Shown here in pieces: positions 14,257-22,376 of a DNA stretch of 33,339 nt. How positions within the stretch are numbered: position 1 is the stretch's first letter; each line of letters opens with the position of its first letter. The notes beneath the pieces were generated by a model that saw only the letters and a list, made by a program, of their open reading frames with translations, did no database searches and was not told the origin of the DNA. Origin of the DNA: a virus; IMG/VR virus record IMGVR_UViG_3300020446_000041, positions 1 through 33,339 of that record; one strand, 5' to 3'. Both the position numbers and the translations under genes were made by a program.

Positions 14257-14449
14257 AGATTACCAAAAGGCAGGCGAAACATTCTGGCCAAAGTATTGGT
14301 ATGTTGCTAAGGAACTTGGTGAAGATGCAAAACCAGAAGACGTTATCAAGGTGATGGAAGCAGTCGGTGCTGTTGCATTGAAACTTGCATTGGAAGAAAA
14401 AGAAGGACCATTTGGATTTAACAAAAAGGACGACGCTGAAAAATTATAA
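14237..14449 (+). CDS. Small acidic hypothetical protein
   Basis: 70 residues, starting MKILTLEDYQKAGETFWPKY. A GAGGAG ribosome site precedes the ATG. Last gene of this early block; a late-type promoter overlaps its stop codon. No family recognised. Confidence 0.65.
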   Translation: MKILTLEDYQKAGETFWPKYWYVAKELGEDAKPEDVIKVMEAVGAVALKLALEEKEGPFGFNKKDDAEKL

Positions 14450-14452
14450 ATA
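14445..14452 (+). promoter_or_regulatory. Late promoter TATAAATA
   Basis: An exact match to the T4 late promoter box, 27 bases before the ATG of the gene at 14480, at the boundary between early small genes and a block of basic proteins. Confidence 0.65.
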
Positions 14453-14479: not shown

Positions 14480-15820
14480 ATGAACTTACAAGGTATTGCT
14501 GAAGCATATAGTCAGGTACATGAGAAGAAAGACCCTTCTTATCTTGAGACTGATATGAAAAAGCGTCAGAAAAATAATGAAAAAGCGCGTAAAGATATGA
14601 AGAAGATGGGTTCTATGAGTAACCCACACTTTGGAGATGGTCCAACAGGTAGTATGTCCTCTGAGGAAATGAGTGCTGATGAGAAGAGCATGAAGAAGTT
14701 CCAGGAACTTCAAAAGAATGTAGATCAGAAGAAGAAAAATATCAGAGGTAATGATTCCGCCGAGCAGAAGGCACGTCTTGAGAAGAAGCGCGGAATGAAA
14801 CTTGATGACCATCCTCAGTTCAAGAAAGAGGAAGTCAGTGGTATTGCTGCTGCATACCAGGCAGTTTATAACAAAGTAGAAGAAGAAGTAGAAGATATTG
14901 AAGAAGCAGATTCATTAGCAGCAATGGCGGCACGTCGTGAAAAGCGTCTTGCTGCACAGAGAAAGCGTGAAGGCACTACCGCATCTGGAAGAGACTTTGG
15001 TCACGACTATTCACTGTCTGATAAACAACAAAAAGCAAGAAGAGATGCTGAGTTTAAGGCAGGAATGAAGAAAGAAGAAGTAGAGCAGGTTGCTGAAGCA
15101 GATTCATTAGCAGCAATGGCGGCACGTCGTGAGAAGCGTCTTAAGGCACAGAGAAAGAAAATGGGCACTAGTGCTACCGGTCAAGACTTCGGTCATGACT
15201 ATAGCCTTACTGCTGCCGAGCGTAAGAAGAGACAAGACAAAGAATTTGATGCTTTCATTGGTAGAGGAAAGAAGAAGACCAACGAAGAAGTAGAAGCAGT
15301 TGATGAAGGACTGACTGGTGTAAGAGCAGACCGTGCCCGTCAGATGCAGGATTCTGATACCAAGTCAAAGGGTGGAAAGAGAACTCCTGCTGACCGTGAC
15401 ACTGCTTTCAGACTCGGAACTGGCACTGCTGAAAAAGGTACGAGAAAAGTAGGTGGTAGAGGTGGCGATGAATATGGTGATCGTGGTAGAGGTAATGCTG
15501 CCAAGCGCCGTATGACGACGGAAGAACTGGAAGGTAATCCAGTTTATGAAGCAACCAAGAAAGACATCAAAGAATTTGTTGGTGCTATGCTTGGTAACGC
15601 AGCAAAGGGTGCGGCAATGGGAGCAGTGAATTCTGCTGGTAAAGCACTTGCCACTCCTGTAGGTGCAGGACTTATTGCTGGAACTGCGGGTGCTGTTACT
15701 GGTGGAAAGAAAAAAATTAAGAGATCAGTAGCAACTGGTGCTGGTGCAGCTGCTGGTGCTGCACTTGGTGGATTGCCTGGTGCTGTAATCGGTGGTATTG
15801 CTGGTCGCGCACTTTCGTGA
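14480..15820 (+). CDS. Basic repeat protein with C-terminal glycine zipper, probable virion or internal head protein
   Basis: 446 residues, very rich in Lys, Arg, Glu and Ala. The N-terminus MNLQGIAEAYSQVHEKK contains IAE-A, like the T4 prohead protease site (I/L-x-E). A similar element, SGIAAAYQAVYNK, recurs near residue 120. Two 38-residue repeats (142-179 and 206-243) begin EADSLAAMAARREKRL and end DFGHDYSL. The C-terminus (~370-446) is a glycine zipper (GAAMGAVNSAGKAL, VGAGLIAGTAGAVTGG, GGLPGAVIGGIAGRAL) able to insert in or pack against membranes. It is behind a late promoter. Function not established; a head-packaged or ejected protein is my inference. Confidence 0.6.
   Translation: MNLQGIAEAYSQVHEKKDPSYLETDMKKRQKNNEKARKDMKKMGSMSNPHFGDGPTGSMSSEEMSADEKSMKKFQELQKNVDQKKKNIRGNDSAEQKARLEKKRGMKLDDHPQFKKEEVSGIAAAYQAVYNKVEEEVEDIEEADSLAAMAARREKRLAAQRKREGTTASGRDFGHDYSLSDKQQKARRDAEFKAGMKKEEVEQVAEADSLAAMAARREKRLKAQRKKMGTSATGQDFGHDYSLTAAERKKRQDKEFDAFIGRGKKKTNEEVEAVDEGLTGVRADRARQMQDSDTKSKGGKRTPADRDTAFRLGTGTAEKGTRKVGGRGGDEYGDRGRGNAAKRRMTTEELEGNPVYEATKKDIKEFVGAMLGNAAKGAAMGAVNSAGKALATPVGAGLIAGTAGAVTGGKKKIKRSVATGAGAAAGAALGGLPGAVIGGIAGRALS
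14903..15208 (+). repeat. Two 114-base direct repeats within the coding sequence
   Basis: Units at 14903-15016 and 15095-15208, in frame. The first 36 bases differ at no or almost no positions and later parts diverge. Each encodes EADSLAAMAARREKRL and continues to DFGHDYSL. This indicates an internal duplication of a protein module. Confidence 0.85.
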
Positions 15821-15838
15821 TATAATCACCACTAAATA
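15821..15838 (+). promoter_or_regulatory. Late-type box with adjacent early-like -10
   Basis: ACTAAATA (15831-15838) resembles the late box. TATAAT (15821-15826) lies 10 bases upstream with a weak TTGCTG 17 bases before it (15798-15803). TATAAT is at the centre of a small inverted repeat, GTGAT-ATA-ATCAC. Both precede the nucleotidyltransferase gene. Confidence 0.45.
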
Positions 15839-15875: not shown

Positions 15876-17135
15876 ATGAAAAAGTTCAGTCAGTTCCTTT
15901 CCGAAGCAGGAGAAACGACTGTATCCTCTCAGGCCCGCAAAATGGGTCTGAAAGGAGACGGACATGGTGGATGGTATGATCAACAGGGCAAGTTCAAAGC
16001 AAAAACTGTTGATGGCAAGTTAAAGGTTTTCTCAGGACGTGAAGCAAAGGCAGAAGAAGAGAAACAAAATAAAAAGAAAGCAGCGGCAGACAACGTAAGG
16101 AGTGCTGCTAAGACTCCTGCTGCAACTCCTGCACAGAAGAAGCAACCTGCACAGCAACAACAAAAGCAAGCAACGAAACCAGCACCAGAAGCAGAGACAG
16201 AAAGTGAAGAGTCCACTTCTACTGGCGCTGTGATTGTATTCGGTCGTTTTAATCCTCCAACGATTGGACACGAGAAACTGTTGAAAGCAGCAGCAACTCA
16301 GGCAAAGAGAGAGGATGCAGATTTAGCAATCTATCCTAGTAGAACTCAGGATAAGAAAAAGAATCCACTTGATCCCAAGACCAAGATTGGATTCATGAAG
16401 ACGATGTTCCCAGACTATCAGGAGAGCATCTTTGATGATAATAATGCAAAAACTATCTTTGATGTTCTGTCTGCTAAGTATGCAGTTGGATATAAGAGTG
16501 TAACCATTATGGTTGGTCAAGATCGTCTTGCAGAGTTCCAAGGTCTTGCTCAGAAATATAATGGTTCTGATCTGTATTCTTTTGATGAGATTAAGGTTGT
16601 CTCTGCTGGTGCTCGTGACCCTGATGCAGATGACGTATCAGGAATGTCTGCATCTAAACTAAGAGCACATGCTGTCGAAAATGATTTCAATGCATTCTCT
16701 AAGGGTGTTCCCAATAAGATGACGGTCATCCAGAAGAAAGAGATGTTCAATGCTGTTCGTAAATCTATGAACATCAAAGAAGAACTGTGGCAGATCGCAC
16801 CTAAATTTGACCCTGAGTCATTGCGTGAGTCATATGTCAAAGGAAAGATTTTTAAAATCGGTGATATTGTAGAGAACTTGAACACTGGTTTGGTTGGTCA
16901 AGTCAACCGCCGTGGAACCAACTATATCATCTGTGTGACAGAGAACGGTATCATGTTCAAGTCTTGGTTGAGGGATATCAAAGAGTATACCGAAGTCAAG
17001 ATGGACAGTATGATGAGAGATAAGAAGCATCCAAATACTTTGGTAGGGACTAGTGGATTCTTGAAGTATGTTCAGAGCATGACCCCAGGAGCAATGCTCA
17101 ATAAACGCTATGTAGTAAAGGTAGGTAAAAAGTAA
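15876..17135 (+). CDS. Nucleotidyltransferase with a capsid-targeting-like N-terminus
   Basis: 419 residues. Residues 1-10 (MKKFSQFLSE, followed by AGE) align with the T4 internal-protein capsid-targeting peptide MKTYQEFIAE-A, including a prohead-protease-type L-x-E site. Residues 55-115 are a Lys/Ala/Gln/Pro linker. The core (~118-300) is an NMNAT/PPAT-type nucleotidyltransferase: GRFNPPTIGH at 123-132 (the H-x-G-H-like site) and GMSASKLR at 256-263 (the ISxxxxR-like motif). Residues ~323-372 (KIFKIGDIVENLNTGLVGQV) look like an SH3/KOW-type barrel. Likely reaction: transfer of AMP or CMP from an NTP to a small phosphate substrate; which one is not visible. Late-type promoter upstream. Confidence 0.8.
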   Translation: MKKFSQFLSEAGETTVSSQARKMGLKGDGHGGWYDQQGKFKAKTVDGKLKVFSGREAKAEEEKQNKKKAAADNVRSAAKTPAATPAQKKQPAQQQQKQATKPAPEAETESEESTSTGAVIVFGRFNPPTIGHEKLLKAAATQAKREDADLAIYPSRTQDKKKNPLDPKTKIGFMKTMFPDYQESIFDDNNAKTIFDVLSAKYAVGYKSVTIMVGQDRLAEFQGLAQKYNGSDLYSFDEIKVVSAGARDPDADDVSGMSASKLRAHAVENDFNAFSKGVPNKMTVIQKKEMFNAVRKSMNIKEELWQIAPKFDPESLRESYVKGKIFKIGDIVENLNTGLVGQVNRRGTNYIICVTENGIMFKSWLRDIKEYTEVKMDSMMRDKKHPNTLVGTSGFLKYVQSMTPGAMLNKRYVVKVGKK

Positions 17136-17170: not shown

Positions 17171-17347
17171 ATGAAGTCCTGGAAAGAATTTGCTCAAGAT
17201 TTAGAAGAGAAGAAGCAACTTGATCCCGTAGGTCAAGAAGACGGCGACATCGATAATGATGGCGACGAAGATGAGACCGATAGTTATCTGGCAAAGCGTC
17301 GTAAGACTATCGGTAAGGCAATCGCTAAGAGCAAGGGTAAGAAATGA
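17171..17347 (+). CDS. Small protein with capsid-targeting-like start and EF-hand-like acidic loop
   Basis: 58 residues. MKSWKEFAQD at 1-10 resembles the T4 targeting peptide MKTYQEFIAE. Residues ~27-42 (DGDIDNDGDEDETDSYL) look like a calcium-binding EF-hand or dockerin-type loop (D-x-D-x-D-G). The tail is very basic (KRRKTIGKAIAKSKGKK). The ATG at 17171 is preferred over a TTG at 17162. The stop overlaps the next ATG. Probably a late, small head-associated protein (inference). Confidence 0.6.
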   Translation: MKSWKEFAQDLEEKKQLDPVGQEDGDIDNDGDEDETDSYLAKRRKTIGKAIAKSKGKK

Positions 17348-19764
17348 CTCCCGAGAAGAAAGAAGCCGTACAGAAGGCACTTGACGACACGATGACCGTC
17401 AGTCAAGCAAGGCAACGCAAACTTGATCTCAGGGCAAAGGAGTTAGAGATTCGTCAAGGAACTCTAGATCGTAAGAAGAAGAATGATGCTGCCGCCCAAG
17501 AGCGGAGAGATGCTGCTGCCAAGAAGAAGGAGAGTAATGCAGTAACTGATGCTATTAGTCGTCGTAAGAAAAAGAAAGCAGATATAGAAGCAAAGAAATT
17601 AGAGAAAATCAAGGGTATCGCTGCTAAGAGAAAAGCAGGTGTTGATAAGAGTCTTTCCCGTGCGAAACAAGTATCAAAGACAGGAAGAAGTTCTGAGACA
17701 ATTCAGGGTGCCGGTGAGACTGCCGATGGCGATGCAACAGCACAAACCAAGATGATGAAGGGTGCTGCCAGTGCTGGTCTTGCCGCTGCAAGAACAGGAT
17801 TTAATCTTGCCAAAGCAGGAGCAAAGGCACTTGGATCTGCTCCTTCGAGAATGAAGGCAGGTTCATTACAGCGTAAAGCAGATAGAAAGCAGAAGAAAAT
17901 TGATGATCGTAATGAAAAACTAGTTGCTGCACAAGACAAGAAGGTTAGTGACAGACTCAATCGTAGAAGAATGAGTAAGGTCAAGAGCAAGGTTGAGAAA
18001 CTCAATCCCTTTCGTAGTAAGTCTAGTGGCAGTGATTCTACTGATACTGCTGCAGAAAAACGATCTGCCGCAAAGGAAAGAAATGATTCTGCAAAAACAA
18101 AGTCTGCATCAAAGGTAATAGAAAAACCCAAAGCATTAAGTCCTGCTAAACCCACTAAGAAATCTGCCGCTGGCGATCCTCTGGCAAAGGCAGCACCTAA
18201 TGTCAAAAAACCAACTGCTCCCACTAAAGCATCTGCTGCTAAGGATCCTCTGGCAAGAGCATCTTCAAACAAACCAGTAAGACCTGCTCGTAGAGCACTG
18301 CCACCAGCAGGTGGAGTTAACAAACCAACTACACAAGCAAAACCATCAGCAGCAGGTAAAATGTCTGACGCAGAGAGAGCACGAAAGGATCCTAAGTTTA
18401 GAAGAGAGTTGATTGCTAAGAGAAACAAAGGTATGAACGAAGAGTTCTATCAGTATCTCATGGAAATTGAGAGAATGGAGAAGAAGACTGATAAGGTCAT
18501 CGACATCATGAAGGGTAAGAACAAGATTGAAATCTCTCCAAAGGTTAGTGAAGAAGTTACTGGTGGTATCCTGATTCAAGATGCTGAAGATTACAAACCA
18601 CTTGAGATTGAAACTGTTGACGTAATCAAAGCAGAACCACTCCAAGAATACAGTGCTCTGGTCAGACAGGGTATCAAAGTTGGCGGTAAGAAAGGTGGCA
18701 GAGCAGTTCAGGCAGGTGAAAAGGCAGCAATTGCCAAGGGTCAAAAGATGAAGGCAGACGCTGCAAAAGGTTCAGCAGAAGCAGGTAAAGGTGAAAAGAT
18801 TGGTGCTGCTGTAGGCGGAACCCTTGGTAGTGCTGCTGGATTTTTAGTTCCAGATGGTCCTGCAATGGTTGCTGGTGAAATCGCTGGCGGTATTGCTGGT
18901 TCTAAGATTGGTGGCGCAATCGGTAAAAAATTCGACAAGAAACCTCCCATGAAAGAAGAAGCATCTGATGCAATGAAGGATCGTCGCATGGAACGTGGCG
19001 GTGTTGGTGGTAATATTGATTACAGCAAACCACCTGCTGCACCAAATACATTTGGTAAAAAGAAACCAAAGAAAGGTGGTCCATCTGCAATGGATATTGT
19101 AAAGTCACAAATCCGTGCAAAGTATGGAGATAAAGCAATCGTGGACACCAAGAAAACTAAGAAAGAAAGTTTCTCTGATTGGAGACGTGATCTTGATATT
19201 CAAGAGTTTATTAAATTCACTGATGCTGCCAAGCGTAGGGCAGAGTACAGAAAGAACTCTCCTACCGGTGGTGATTATACTAAGTGGAAACCAGGTGTAG
19301 ATGTTCCTTTTGTTGATAATGATCTTAAACTTGAACCATTCAAGGCAGGTTCGCATAAAAATCCACTCACCTATAAAGGTCAGGATGTAACTGCTGACAT
19401 GGCAAAGGATTATGCAGGCAAAAAACTAAGTCAGGCAGGCGATGCGGTTAAGGGTGCCGCTAAGTCAGTAGCGGATTATGCAACGAAGAATCCTGGTAAG
19501 GCAGCTGCTATTGGGGCAGGTGTCGTTGGTGCCGGACTCCTTGCCAAGAAAGTTCTTGGTGGTGATAAGAAGAAAGAACAGCAAGAACATAGTGCTTGGC
19601 GTTCTGAACTAAATTATGTTGAGGAAGGTGAAGGTAAAAAGGATGCTTGCTACCACAAAGTGAAGGCATCTGCTAAAGTGTGGCCAAGTGCATATGCTTC
19701 TGGTCGTCTTGTCCAGTGCCGTAAGAAAGGTGCTGCTAACTACGGAAACTCTAAAAAGGACTGA
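17344..19764 (+). CDS. Large basic modular protein with glycine zippers, probable virion or internal protein
   Basis: 806 residues. About 1-230 is a charged helical region rich in KK, RR and AA; 230-345 is Lys/Ala/Pro/Ser low complexity. About 370-445 carries an acidic part (NEEFYQYLMEIERMEKK). A glycine zipper (IGAAVGGTLGSAAGF to IAGSKIGGAIGKK) spans ~485-530, and a second (KAAAIGAGVVGAGLLAKK) lies near 718-735. FSDWRRDL (~610) and SAWRSEL (~750) are related Trp-Arg elements. The last ~43 residues hold a two-Cys domain (DACYHKVKASAKVWPSAYAS, then QCRKKGAANYG) recalled from other cyanophage proteins. No enzyme motif seen. Late cluster; function not established. Confidence 0.6.
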   Translation: MTPEKKEAVQKALDDTMTVSQARQRKLDLRAKELEIRQGTLDRKKKNDAAAQERRDAAAKKKESNAVTDAISRRKKKKADIEAKKLEKIKGIAAKRKAGVDKSLSRAKQVSKTGRSSETIQGAGETADGDATAQTKMMKGAASAGLAAARTGFNLAKAGAKALGSAPSRMKAGSLQRKADRKQKKIDDRNEKLVAAQDKKVSDRLNRRRMSKVKSKVEKLNPFRSKSSGSDSTDTAAEKRSAAKERNDSAKTKSASKVIEKPKALSPAKPTKKSAAGDPLAKAAPNVKKPTAPTKASAAKDPLARASSNKPVRPARRALPPAGGVNKPTTQAKPSAAGKMSDAERARKDPKFRRELIAKRNKGMNEEFYQYLMEIERMEKKTDKVIDIMKGKNKIEISPKVSEEVTGGILIQDAEDYKPLEIETVDVIKAEPLQEYSALVRQGIKVGGKKGGRAVQAGEKAAIAKGQKMKADAAKGSAEAGKGEKIGAAVGGTLGSAAGFLVPDGPAMVAGEIAGGIAGSKIGGAIGKKFDKKPPMKEEASDAMKDRRMERGGVGGNIDYSKPPAAPNTFGKKKPKKGGPSAMDIVKSQIRAKYGDKAIVDTKKTKKESFSDWRRDLDIQEFIKFTDAAKRRAEYRKNSPTGGDYTKWKPGVDVPFVDNDLKLEPFKAGSHKNPLTYKGQDVTADMAKDYAGKKLSQAGDAVKGAAKSVADYATKNPGKAAAIGAGVVGAGLLAKKVLGGDKKKEQQEHSAWRSELNYVEEGEGKKDACYHKVKASAKVWPSAYASGRLVQCRKKGAANYGNSKKD

Positions 19765-19769
19765 CTATC

Positions 19770-20804
19770 ATGGATACCGAGATTGTAAAAGAGGACTTAC
19801 GTAAGTGGTTCAAAGATGGTGGTTGGAACCGATACAACACCAAAGGTGAGAAGGTGGGTAAATGTGCCCGCGAGGATAAGGATGGTGATGGCAAGGCAGA
19901 TGGTCCAAAACCAAAATGTCTTCCTGCATCCAAGGCAGCAAGTCTCGGTAAGAAAAAAGTAGCAGCAGCAGTCAAGAGAAAAAGAGCAGAAGATCCCAAT
20001 CCCGATAGAACAGGAGCAGCAAAGAACGTGAAAACAGAAGAAGTTCAACAGTTCATGGAGAAGTGCTGGAAGGGGTATGAGAAAAAAGGTATGAAGACTA
20101 TGTTTGGTAAGAGATATCCAAACTGTGTCAAAAAAGAAGAAGTCGAACAGATTGATGAACTTATTAATCCTAAAATCAATCTTCCTTTTAGTGGAGATAA
20201 GATAGTCCATAGTGGCGGTTTTGGATCTACTCTAGGAGGTGCTGCAGCAGCAGGACTTGGAGCAGCAACTGCTTATGGTCTGAGTCAACTGAATAAAAAG
20301 AAAAAGAAAAAAGAGGTCAAAAAAGAATCATTCCAATCTTTTAATGAGAAGGCAATGAAATGCTGGGACACCCATAAAAAAGTTGGAATGAAGATGAAAG
20401 GTGGTAAACTGGTAAACGACTGCCGCCCAAAGAATGAGGAAGTCGAAGTAGAAGAGAGTCACAAGAATCCTGAGAGTGTAAAAGGTATTGCCAAAGAATT
20501 AGATAAGGCAGTCGAAATGCACAAGAGTCAGGCAAAGAGACTTAGAAAAGCGGGTGTATCTGAGGCAGCAGCATGGACAAAAAAGGAAGGTAAAAATGAA
20601 AAAGGTGGACTTAATGAAAAAGGTAGGAAGTCGTATGAACGTGAAAACCCAGGAAGCGATCTTAAGAGACCTTCAAAGAAAGTTGGGAACAAGCGTAGAG
20701 CGTCTTTTTGCGCGAGAATGAAGGGCATGCGTAAGCGTCAGAAACCATCTAATAATACTGGCGAAGACCGTCTGTCTAAATCACTTAGAGCGTGGAACTG
20801 TTAA
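19770..20804 (+). CDS. Basic modular protein with two Cys-Trp repeats
   Basis: 344 residues, strongly basic. Residues 1-85 form a conserved basic domain with C32 and C50 (PKPKCLPASKAASLGKKK). Two related modules follow: 98-119 (EKCWKGYEKKGMK to PNCV) and 196-218 (MKCWDTHKKVGMK to NDCR), each with two Cys. Between them is a small glycine zipper (149-173, GGFGSTLGGAAAAGLGAATA). Residues ~235-344 contain AAAWTKKEGKNEKGGLNEKG and KRRASFCARMKGM, a domain I recall at the end of other phage proteins. DNA binding in the head would fit the charge, but nothing proves it. It starts 5 bases after the large gene, with an AAAAAGGA ribosome site. Confidence 0.6.
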   Translation: MDTEIVKEDLRKWFKDGGWNRYNTKGEKVGKCAREDKDGDGKADGPKPKCLPASKAASLGKKKVAAAVKRKRAEDPNPDRTGAAKNVKTEEVQQFMEKCWKGYEKKGMKTMFGKRYPNCVKKEEVEQIDELINPKINLPFSGDKIVHSGGFGSTLGGAAAAGLGAATAYGLSQLNKKKKKKEVKKESFQSFNEKAMKCWDTHKKVGMKMKGGKLVNDCRPKNEEVEVEESHKNPESVKGIAKELDKAVEMHKSQAKRLRKAGVSEAAAWTKKEGKNEKGGLNEKGRKSYERENPGSDLKRPSKKVGNKRRASFCARMKGMRKRQKPSNNTGEDRLSKSLRAWNC

Positions 20805-21300: not shown

Positions 21301-21795
21301 ATGTCTCTTTGGGGAACAAAAGACACAGTATACTCAACGGGTAACGTCAATCTTGACGTTTCTACCGGAGTAGTCACGAAGCAAAGTGGCAGTATTGATT
21401 TCGCATCAAACGTAGAAGCGGGTCAGATTATCACCATCGACGGAACTGCTGAAGGTGTAATTGAGAGCGTCGATAGTGCTACTCAACTTACCATTGGTAC
21501 TGAGTATCTGCCAGCTAGTGACCTTAGCAATAAAACTTACGAGGTTCGTGAGAAACCCAAGTCAACACTGTTCGATTCAAACTACAGTGCTGCTGAAATC
21601 TTTGGTGTAGACACCACTGAACAATCAGTTGCTCGTGACGCCGGTTCGCAATATAGACCTGCTCATGCTGGTTGGGTTGGAATTAGTTCTTATACCGACC
21701 AACATGGTAACACCAGAGTCAAGACTGAAGTTTTAGTTGCTGGAAGCAGCATCTCTGCTGATGCCGGTGACGATCAACAACTGCCAGATAGCTGA
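21301..21795 (+). CDS. Probable virion structural protein
   Basis: 164 residues, starting MSLWGTKDTVYSTGNVNLDV. It is strand-rich, Ser/Thr/Gly/Asp-rich and acidic, with repeated small beta elements (AGQIITIDGTAEGVIESVDS). This start and composition resemble a cyanophage protein reported in virions; I recall the family but cannot verify it. An exact late promoter, its own terminator upstream and an AAAGGAGAG ribosome site point to strong late expression. Residues ~113-126 (GSQYRPAHAGWVGI) look like a distinct C-terminal element. Confidence 0.65.
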   Translation: MSLWGTKDTVYSTGNVNLDVSTGVVTKQSGSIDFASNVEAGQIITIDGTAEGVIESVDSATQLTIGTEYLPASDLSNKTYEVREKPKSTLFDSNYSAAEIFGVDTTEQSVARDAGSQYRPAHAGWVGISSYTDQHGNTRVKTEVLVAGSSISADAGDDQQLPDS

Positions 21796-21813: not shown

Positions 21814-22185
21814 ATGCGATTTGATGAACTCAATGAATCGAACTACATAATGTTCGCCATGAAAAATTATGAGAATCCTCAGGCAGTAACGCAAGAGGAT
21901 TTTTATGATGACATGAAGCGATTTAAGTGGATCAAAAGGTTATTGAATAAGTACAGAAATACAGGAGAGATGAATGTTCCTCTCCTGTTAAATCACTTTA
22001 TTATTCTCTATAATATTTTTGGTGATGCCACGACACCACTTCTATTTTATCGAATAGATAGTGAATTGTGGACTATCCTTAAAACTTTTATAGTTTACCT
22101 TGACCGATTACCAGAATACCCAATCTCATATATTCATAAGATTCCAATCGACTGTGGATGTATGGATATCTTAGATAACTTATGA
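21814..22185 (+). CDS. Conserved hypothetical protein
   Basis: 123 residues, starting MRFDELNESNYIMFAMKNYE. Helical, with aromatic residues and three Cys or C-G-C near the C-terminus (IDCGCMDIL). A perfect 9-bp hairpin lies in the coding sequence at 21961-21988. It overlaps the next gene by 4 bases. I recall similar proteins in cyanophages, function unknown. Confidence 0.7.
   Translation: MRFDELNESNYIMFAMKNYENPQAVTQEDFYDDMKRFKWIKRLLNKYRNTGEMNVPLLLNHFIILYNIFGDATTPLLFYRIDSELWTILKTFIVYLDRLPEYPISYIHKIPIDCGCMDILDNL
21961..21988 (+). other. Perfect 9-bp inverted repeat inside a gene
   Basis: ACAGGAGAG (21961-21969) pairs with CTCTCCTGT (21980-21988) around a 10-base loop. No T-run follows, so it is not a terminator. 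The GGAGAG arm and an ATG in the loop could also mimic an internal ribosome site. Confidence 0.6.
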
Positions 22186-22376
22186 AAACCTTCTATCAGT
22201 TTTACGAAGAAATGATGGCTGCTAATGCCGCTGGCGCTAGTGGTGGTTTTGGTGCTAACTCTCCTGCTGCAGGACCCACTGCTGGTAAAGAAACCCCTAT
22301 GGGTAAAGTCCAGAAAAGGAAGGTAATCGGTCTTGGTCCTGGATCAAGAAAACGTTGGATGCAGAAAAATGGATGA
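22182..22376 (+). CDS. Small protein with capsid-targeting-like N-terminus
   Basis: 64 residues. MKTFYQFYEE at 1-10 resembles MKTYQEFIAE of T4 internal proteins. A flexible Gly/Ala/Pro region follows, then a basic end (KVQKRKVIGLGPGSRKRW). No enzymatic motif. The ATG overlaps the preceding stop. A small packaged internal protein is a reasonable inference. Confidence 0.6.
   Translation: MKTFYQFYEEMMAANAAGASGGFGANSPAAGPTAGKETPMGKVQKRKVIGLGPGSRKRWMQKNG

Follow-up and report, generated by a model that had tools for sequence, protein, structure and literature searches.

A T4-type capsid-targeting-like peptide on a nucleotidyltransferase-fold protein of T4-like cyanophages

Does a nucleotidyltransferase gene of a T4-like cyanophage encode a protein addressed to the phage head? 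The question is raised by an open reading frame (ORF) at positions 15876-17135 of a virus record of 33,339 bases (the window, meaning the whole stretch of DNA analysed), in which the order of genes (DNA polymerase, UvsX, gp41, MazG, enzyme locus, gp61, nrdA and nrdB) is that of the T4-like cyanophages (Kyanoviridae). The frame, the length of 419 aa, the start and the N-terminus MKKFSQFLSEA were read from the window and agreed with those of an earlier note on this DNA, which had proposed that the product is an enzyme bound for the head. The ORF was assigned to phrog_395 (2.2e-98), and its orthologue in P-SSM2 is T4-GC190, at the equivalent place. T4-GC190, a 'cytitidyltransferase' of phrog_395 called 'NMNAT' in S-SCSM1, corresponds to the window enzyme in both family and locus and has been detected in the virions of four phages.

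Architecture of the protein and its neighbourhood

The AlphaFold2 model of the full protein, built with 47 sequences, had a mean pLDDT of 81, and the core modelled alone reached 92. The features recognised in the protein and around its gene are listed in Table 1. The flexible linker had been placed directly after the peptide, which proved wrong: a small conserved domain (GDGHGxWYD, residues ~15-54), confidently modelled, intervenes and is followed by a helix, the disordered stretch lying at residues ~75-115 (pLDDT near 45-53 over residues 71-110). The small barrel claimed by the earlier note was recovered in the predicted structure; Foldseek returned for it a weak match, with a low TM-score, to a chain of an RNA polymerase II elongation complex.

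Table 1. Features of the enzyme ORF and of the surrounding genes in the window
Feature	Position	Strand	Observation
446-aa neighbour, upstream	14480..15820	+	partly similar to S-SCSM1 virion protein ORF89; TATAAATA 34 nt upstream
late-type promoter-like ACTAAATA	15831..15838	+	44 nt before enzyme ATG; substituted form resembling T4 late motif TATAAATA
capsid-targeting-like peptide MKKFSQFLSE, residues 1-10	15876..15905	+	gp21-type cleavage after E10 (15905/15906) predicted
small conserved domain GDGHGGWYD, residues ~15-54	15918..16037	+	kept in 84 homologues; pLDDT ~93 over 21-50
helix leading into disordered A-, K-, E- and Q-rich linker, residues 55-116	16038..16223	+	conservation low
HIGH-superfamily nucleotidyltransferase core, residues 117-300	16224..16775	+	PF01467, phrog_395, core model, PDB folds
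[T/H]xGH motif GRFNPPTIGH, residues 123-132	16242..16271	+	(nearly) invariant family-wide, pelagiphage homologues included
second active-site motif GMSASKLR, residues 256-263	16641..16664	+	SxTxxR loop counterpart
SH3/KOW-type small beta barrel, residues ~328-371	16857..16988	+	five strands in model; related to phrog_4808
58-aa neighbour MKSWKEFAQDLEE..., CTS-like start	17171..17347	+	body like part of S-SCSM1 virion protein ORF92
806-aa lysine-rich protein	17344..19764	+	C-terminus matches S-SCSM1 virion protein ORF29
344-aa lysine-rich protein, DUF6321	19770..20804	+	matches S-SCSM1 virion protein ORF29
164-aa protein	21301..21795	+	homologue of S-SCSM1 virion protein ORF95; TATAAATA 42 nt upstream
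64-aa protein MKTFYQFYEE..., CTS-like start	22182..22376	+	body resembles S-SCSM1 virion protein ORF97, E 8e-4

Around the enzyme gene of S-SCSM1, ORFs 89, 90, 92, 93, 95 and 97 likewise encode virion proteins. The matches of the window neighbours to S-SCSM1 proteins are partial in several cases, and that of the ORF at 22182 is weak. The late-type promoter that the earlier note had seen before the gene is present as ACTAAATA; read-through into the enzyme gene from the exact TATAAATA at 14445-14452 is also possible. The exact motif precedes the ORFs at 14480, 17171 (34 nt upstream) and 21301, and one or the other form lies 30-44 nt before five ORFs (14480, 15876, 17171, 21029 and 21301). In the whole window the two forms showed no excess over chance; the promoter argument is one of motif position.

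Other characteristics of these genes were observed. A GF..S...GP.AG.DP stretch in the family of the ORF at 22182-22376 also occurs in cyanophage gp23, in its N-terminal region. An AYxxVxEK-like N-terminal peptide (for example IAEAYSQVHEK and LSEAYAAVYSN) recurs on proteins of the island (14480-15820, S-SCSM1 ORF89 and neighbours in P-RSM4 and Sf-FS3) and may be a second targeting signal. The lysine-rich proteins at 17344-19764 and 19770-20804 contain repeated SFxxW/SAWRxEL-like segments (SFSDWRRDL, HSAWRSEL, SFQSFNEKA) and could be prohead protease substrates with several cut sites each. Small proteins near the enzyme gene in loci L058 (515-925) and L043 (575-1033) start MKTFSEFIAEA and MKTFLEFISEA, almost the T4 IPIII peptide, and S-CREM2 gp136 (L278:7301-8014), a lysine-rich protein of 237 aa with eight virion peptides in the published MS passages, has the CTS-like start MQTFSMFFSED.

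The N-terminal peptide and the virion location

In the T4 record (NC_000866) IPII and IPIII start MKTYQEFIAEA and IPI starts MKTFKEFT, so that the match of MKKFSQFLSE/A to the IPII/IPIII capsid-targeting sequence (CTS) MKTYQEFIAE/A (the slash marks the cleavage site) is real and without gaps, as the earlier note had aligned them. Like the three T4 internal proteins, the enzyme opens with a peptide of ten residues having an aromatic residue at position 4, F7, a hydrophobic residue at position 8 and E10, followed by A as in IPII and IPIII; in the model, residues 4-11 form a helix. Virion location is a further likeness, seen in the relatives of the enzyme. The T4 internal proteins differ in their small size and are not known to be enzymes (IPI is an inhibitor of a restriction endonuclease), whereas the window protein carries a nucleotidyltransferase. 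Alt resembles it as an enzyme packaged into a T4-type head, but is an ADP-ribosyltransferase, and a Pfam search of the window enzyme found no ART domain. As a model for the peptide, Alt was ruled out by its N-terminus, MELITELFDE; the match is therefore to IPII/IPIII and not to Alt.

A set of 84 homologues from IMG/VR and phage genomes was aligned after reduction to <85% identity. F4 was found in 82 of them (L in the other two), while F7, a hydrophobic residue at position 8 and E10 were present in all (84/84 each); A11 occurred in 76/83, and residues 3, 5, 6, 9, 12 and 13 were variable. The conserved positions are those mapped in IPIII, where targeting depends on residues 4 and 7 and processing on residues 8 and 10 (review, PMC9026906). 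At positions 4, 7 and 10, Phe and Glu are each encoded by both of their codons. Only the best 80 matches to full-length queries were kept, which may have biased the selection; the patterns of the larger scan lie in the core. The comparison of the first 12 residues suggested by the earlier note thus upheld positions 4, 7, 8 and 10 among the 84, but some homologues lack the peptide, namely those of pelagiphages, S-PM2, S-CAM4 and S-PRM1 (S-PRM1 and HTVC008M, both without it, were omitted from the set). These are a minority belonging to separate lineages.

The pattern M-x(1,2)-[FYW]-xx-[FY]-[LIVMFT]-x-E opened two of the 282 S-SCSM1 proteins, against a mean of 0.13 with shuffled N-termini. The carriers were the enzyme and a 106-aa protein, one virion-listed and the other absent from the virion list, too few for an enrichment among virion proteins to be used. 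On the alignment, conservation at the functional CTS positions is stronger evidence than the rarity of the pattern.

The LSE/A of the enzyme conforms to the (L/I)xE rule, as do the sites that cyanophage gp23 proteins have at the place of the T4 gp23 site (SFLAE/AP in S-SCSM1, LLTE/AP in S-CREM2, ILTE/AA in S-SZBM1 and ILTE/TL in S-SM1; SFLTE/AE in T4), which are taken as cut sites by analogy with T4. Cleavage by a gp21-type protease after E10 is predicted and seems likely. A depletion of other (L/I)xE sites in the enzyme was considered as evidence and discarded, there being none overall (3.75 observed versus 2.86 expected); the linker holds few (0.02 observed versus 0.12 expected).

In passages of published virion proteomics, T4-GC190 was found in S-SM1 virions and listed as encoded yet undetected in those of S-PM2 (PMC3037559), and the enzyme was found in CsCl-purified particles of S-SCSM1 (ORF91, PMC9602691), S-CREM2 (ORF154, 3 peptides, PMC10665884) and S-SZBM1 (S-SZBM1_140, 2 peptides, PMC9146016). 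All four MS-positive relatives have the peptide: MKKFSAFLNEA in S-SM1, MKSFLQFLKEA in S-SCSM1, MKNFSSFLTEA in S-CREM2 and MRFRQFIIEA, shorter by one residue, in S-SZBM1. The S-PM2 protein lacks it and has an N-terminus resembling the end of DUF6267; this sole MS-negative case without the peptide differs otherwise too, being fused to part of DUF6267.

In the passages cited, the S-SCSM1 and S-CREM2 authors warned that the enzyme was possibly carried over during CsCl purification (PMC9602691, PMC10665884). It would then belong to the ordinary late metabolism of the infected cell, its peptide being a helix for interaction or for the membrane with no bearing on the head, and the low peptide counts of S-CREM2 and S-SZBM1 point that way. 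We consider this very improbable: the enzyme was reported from four phages, each studied independently, the conserved residues are those of the CTS and include an invariant E10 for which a generic helix would have no use, and the island of the gene holds homologues of virion proteins. The head address proposed in the earlier note is well supported, and packaging of the enzyme directed by the CTS is very likely, on the basis of the peptide at the mapped positions, its presence in the MS-positive relatives, its absence from S-PM2 and the virion homologues of the neighbours.

The head location of the family was already known, for the relatives. The mechanism offered by the peptide appears new to the searchable papers: the published passages on T4-GC190 give neither a packaging mechanism nor a tested activity, and no earlier report of a CTS in cyanophages was found in open-access papers, which is not proof of absence.

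The nucleotidyltransferase core and its substrate

The NMNAT/PPAT-like core announced by the earlier note stood as to fold, conserved motifs and PF01467 (CTP_transf_like, 25.6 bits against a gathering cut-off of 21), but not as to the curated NMNAT models, which remained below cut-off; the NMNAT equivalog TIGR00482 gave 14.4 bits against 112.45. Foldseek against the PDB scored NadD/NMNAT and CoaD folds alike (TM ~0.55-0.6 by query), and PDB sequences searched with a profile of the enzyme family gave weak matches only. PADLOC returned no match. The modelled core belongs to the HIGH-superfamily adenylyltransferases, and its nearest folds are those of NadD/NMNAT and CoaD; since the curated models stayed below cut-off and the NadD and CoaD folds scored alike, we call it NMNAT-like in fold and not NMNAT. 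Phage NAD+ salvage enzymes (NadM/NadR, with NadV) share the HIGH-superfamily adenylyltransferase domain but have a Nudix or kinase domain, whereas the Pfam search of the window enzyme found neither a fused Nudix nor a P-loop kinase domain. No NadV was seen among the annotated ORFs of the 33,339-base window.

Conservation of GRFNPPTIGH, GxDR and SASKLR extends to the pelagiphages, and G256, S258 and R263 were invariant in 47/47 sequences. The maintenance of both active-site motifs in cyanophage and pelagiphage homologues suggests that catalysis has been selected. This argues against a role in the head itself, in which a CTS-packaged protein would take part in core assembly or bind DNA or internal proteins and would keep the catalytic fold for ligand binding; the barrel and the small N-terminal domain, as modelled, are possible binding modules and the neighbours are lysine-rich, but we regard such a role as improbable. 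The enzyme is probably an active adenylyltransferase, and that it is at once CTS-packaged and catalytically active, whatever its exact substrate, is fairly probable.

For NMN or NaMN as the substrate the chances seem slightly below even. The sub-threshold matches to curated models are mostly of NadD/NadR type, the best coming from the S-PM2 homologue (8.5e-7). A variant of the preferred explanation, differing in substrate only, is nearly as plausible but still short of even: the packaged enzyme might use phosphopantetheine, glycerol-3-phosphate with CTP, FMN, or RNA or protein ends together with DUF6267. The fold matches CoaD no less well than NadD, the family is labelled cytidyltransferase in databases, and DUF6267, with its ligase-like motifs KWDGAPA and EGFV, lies next to the enzyme in many phages or is fused to it; the NadD/NadR-type matches just given and the lack of DUF6267 in the window speak the other way.

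The DUF6267 partner and the proposed mechanism

DUF6267 is encoded upstream of the enzyme in many relatives, and the two are fused in phrog_455; it was not found in the window. The enzyme of pelagiphages starts MKTLKELL, without E10, and their DUF6267 has a short peptide ending in LxE immediately before KNTHLEHLED (for example MELLNE/DKNTH). Three loci from another group (L273-L275) have a full CTS on DUF6267, MKKFNQFIIE/AKNTHMEHVED, where untagged homologues read MAKNTHLEHLED. Over the loci fetched, the tag was on the enzyme only in 51, on DUF6267 only in 48 (for example L273:345-1571, L276:1715-2938 and L030:5544-6776), on both in none and on neither in two; the 51 and 48 are not independent events, because the loci fall into few lineages. 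From these sequences we infer one tag per enzyme-DUF6267 pair.

In DUF6267 (L032:3296-4270 and homologues) KWDGAPA and EGFV..KLVDR resemble motifs I and IV of ATP-dependent ligases. The likeness is a reading by eye, as a search of the PDB with the DUF6267 profile gave no meaningful match.

In the mechanism that we propose, the enzyme would be a T4-type internal head protein carrying a catalytic domain. Residues 1-10 would act as the capsid-targeting sequence, with F4 and F7 docking the protein on the core of the prohead. Cutting at L-S-E/A, after E10, the prohead protease gp21 would free the mature enzyme inside the head. The mature enzyme would be expelled along with the DNA, and its entry into the host is somewhat favoured; there the core, as an adenylyltransferase of NMN/NaMN type, would work on a cofactor or nucleotide. 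A wider proposal, unlikely as a whole, is that marine T4-like phages (Kyanoviridae) use a T4-type tag to load a conserved adenylyltransferase, which they inject when infecting, that the tag is modular and sits on DUF6267 in pelagiphages, and that both proteins may enter the head together as a single-tag complex, to restore NAD+ or to modify nucleic acid before phage gene expression.

The enzyme is a cyanophage core gene product whose recurrent detection in virions has so far been read as either cargo or carry-over. The peptide supplies a candidate packaging mechanism, predicts the exact mature N-terminus and allows candidates for head cargo to be listed from sequence. If the enzyme is injected, cyanophages would change a nucleotide or cofactor pool of the host ahead of gene expression.
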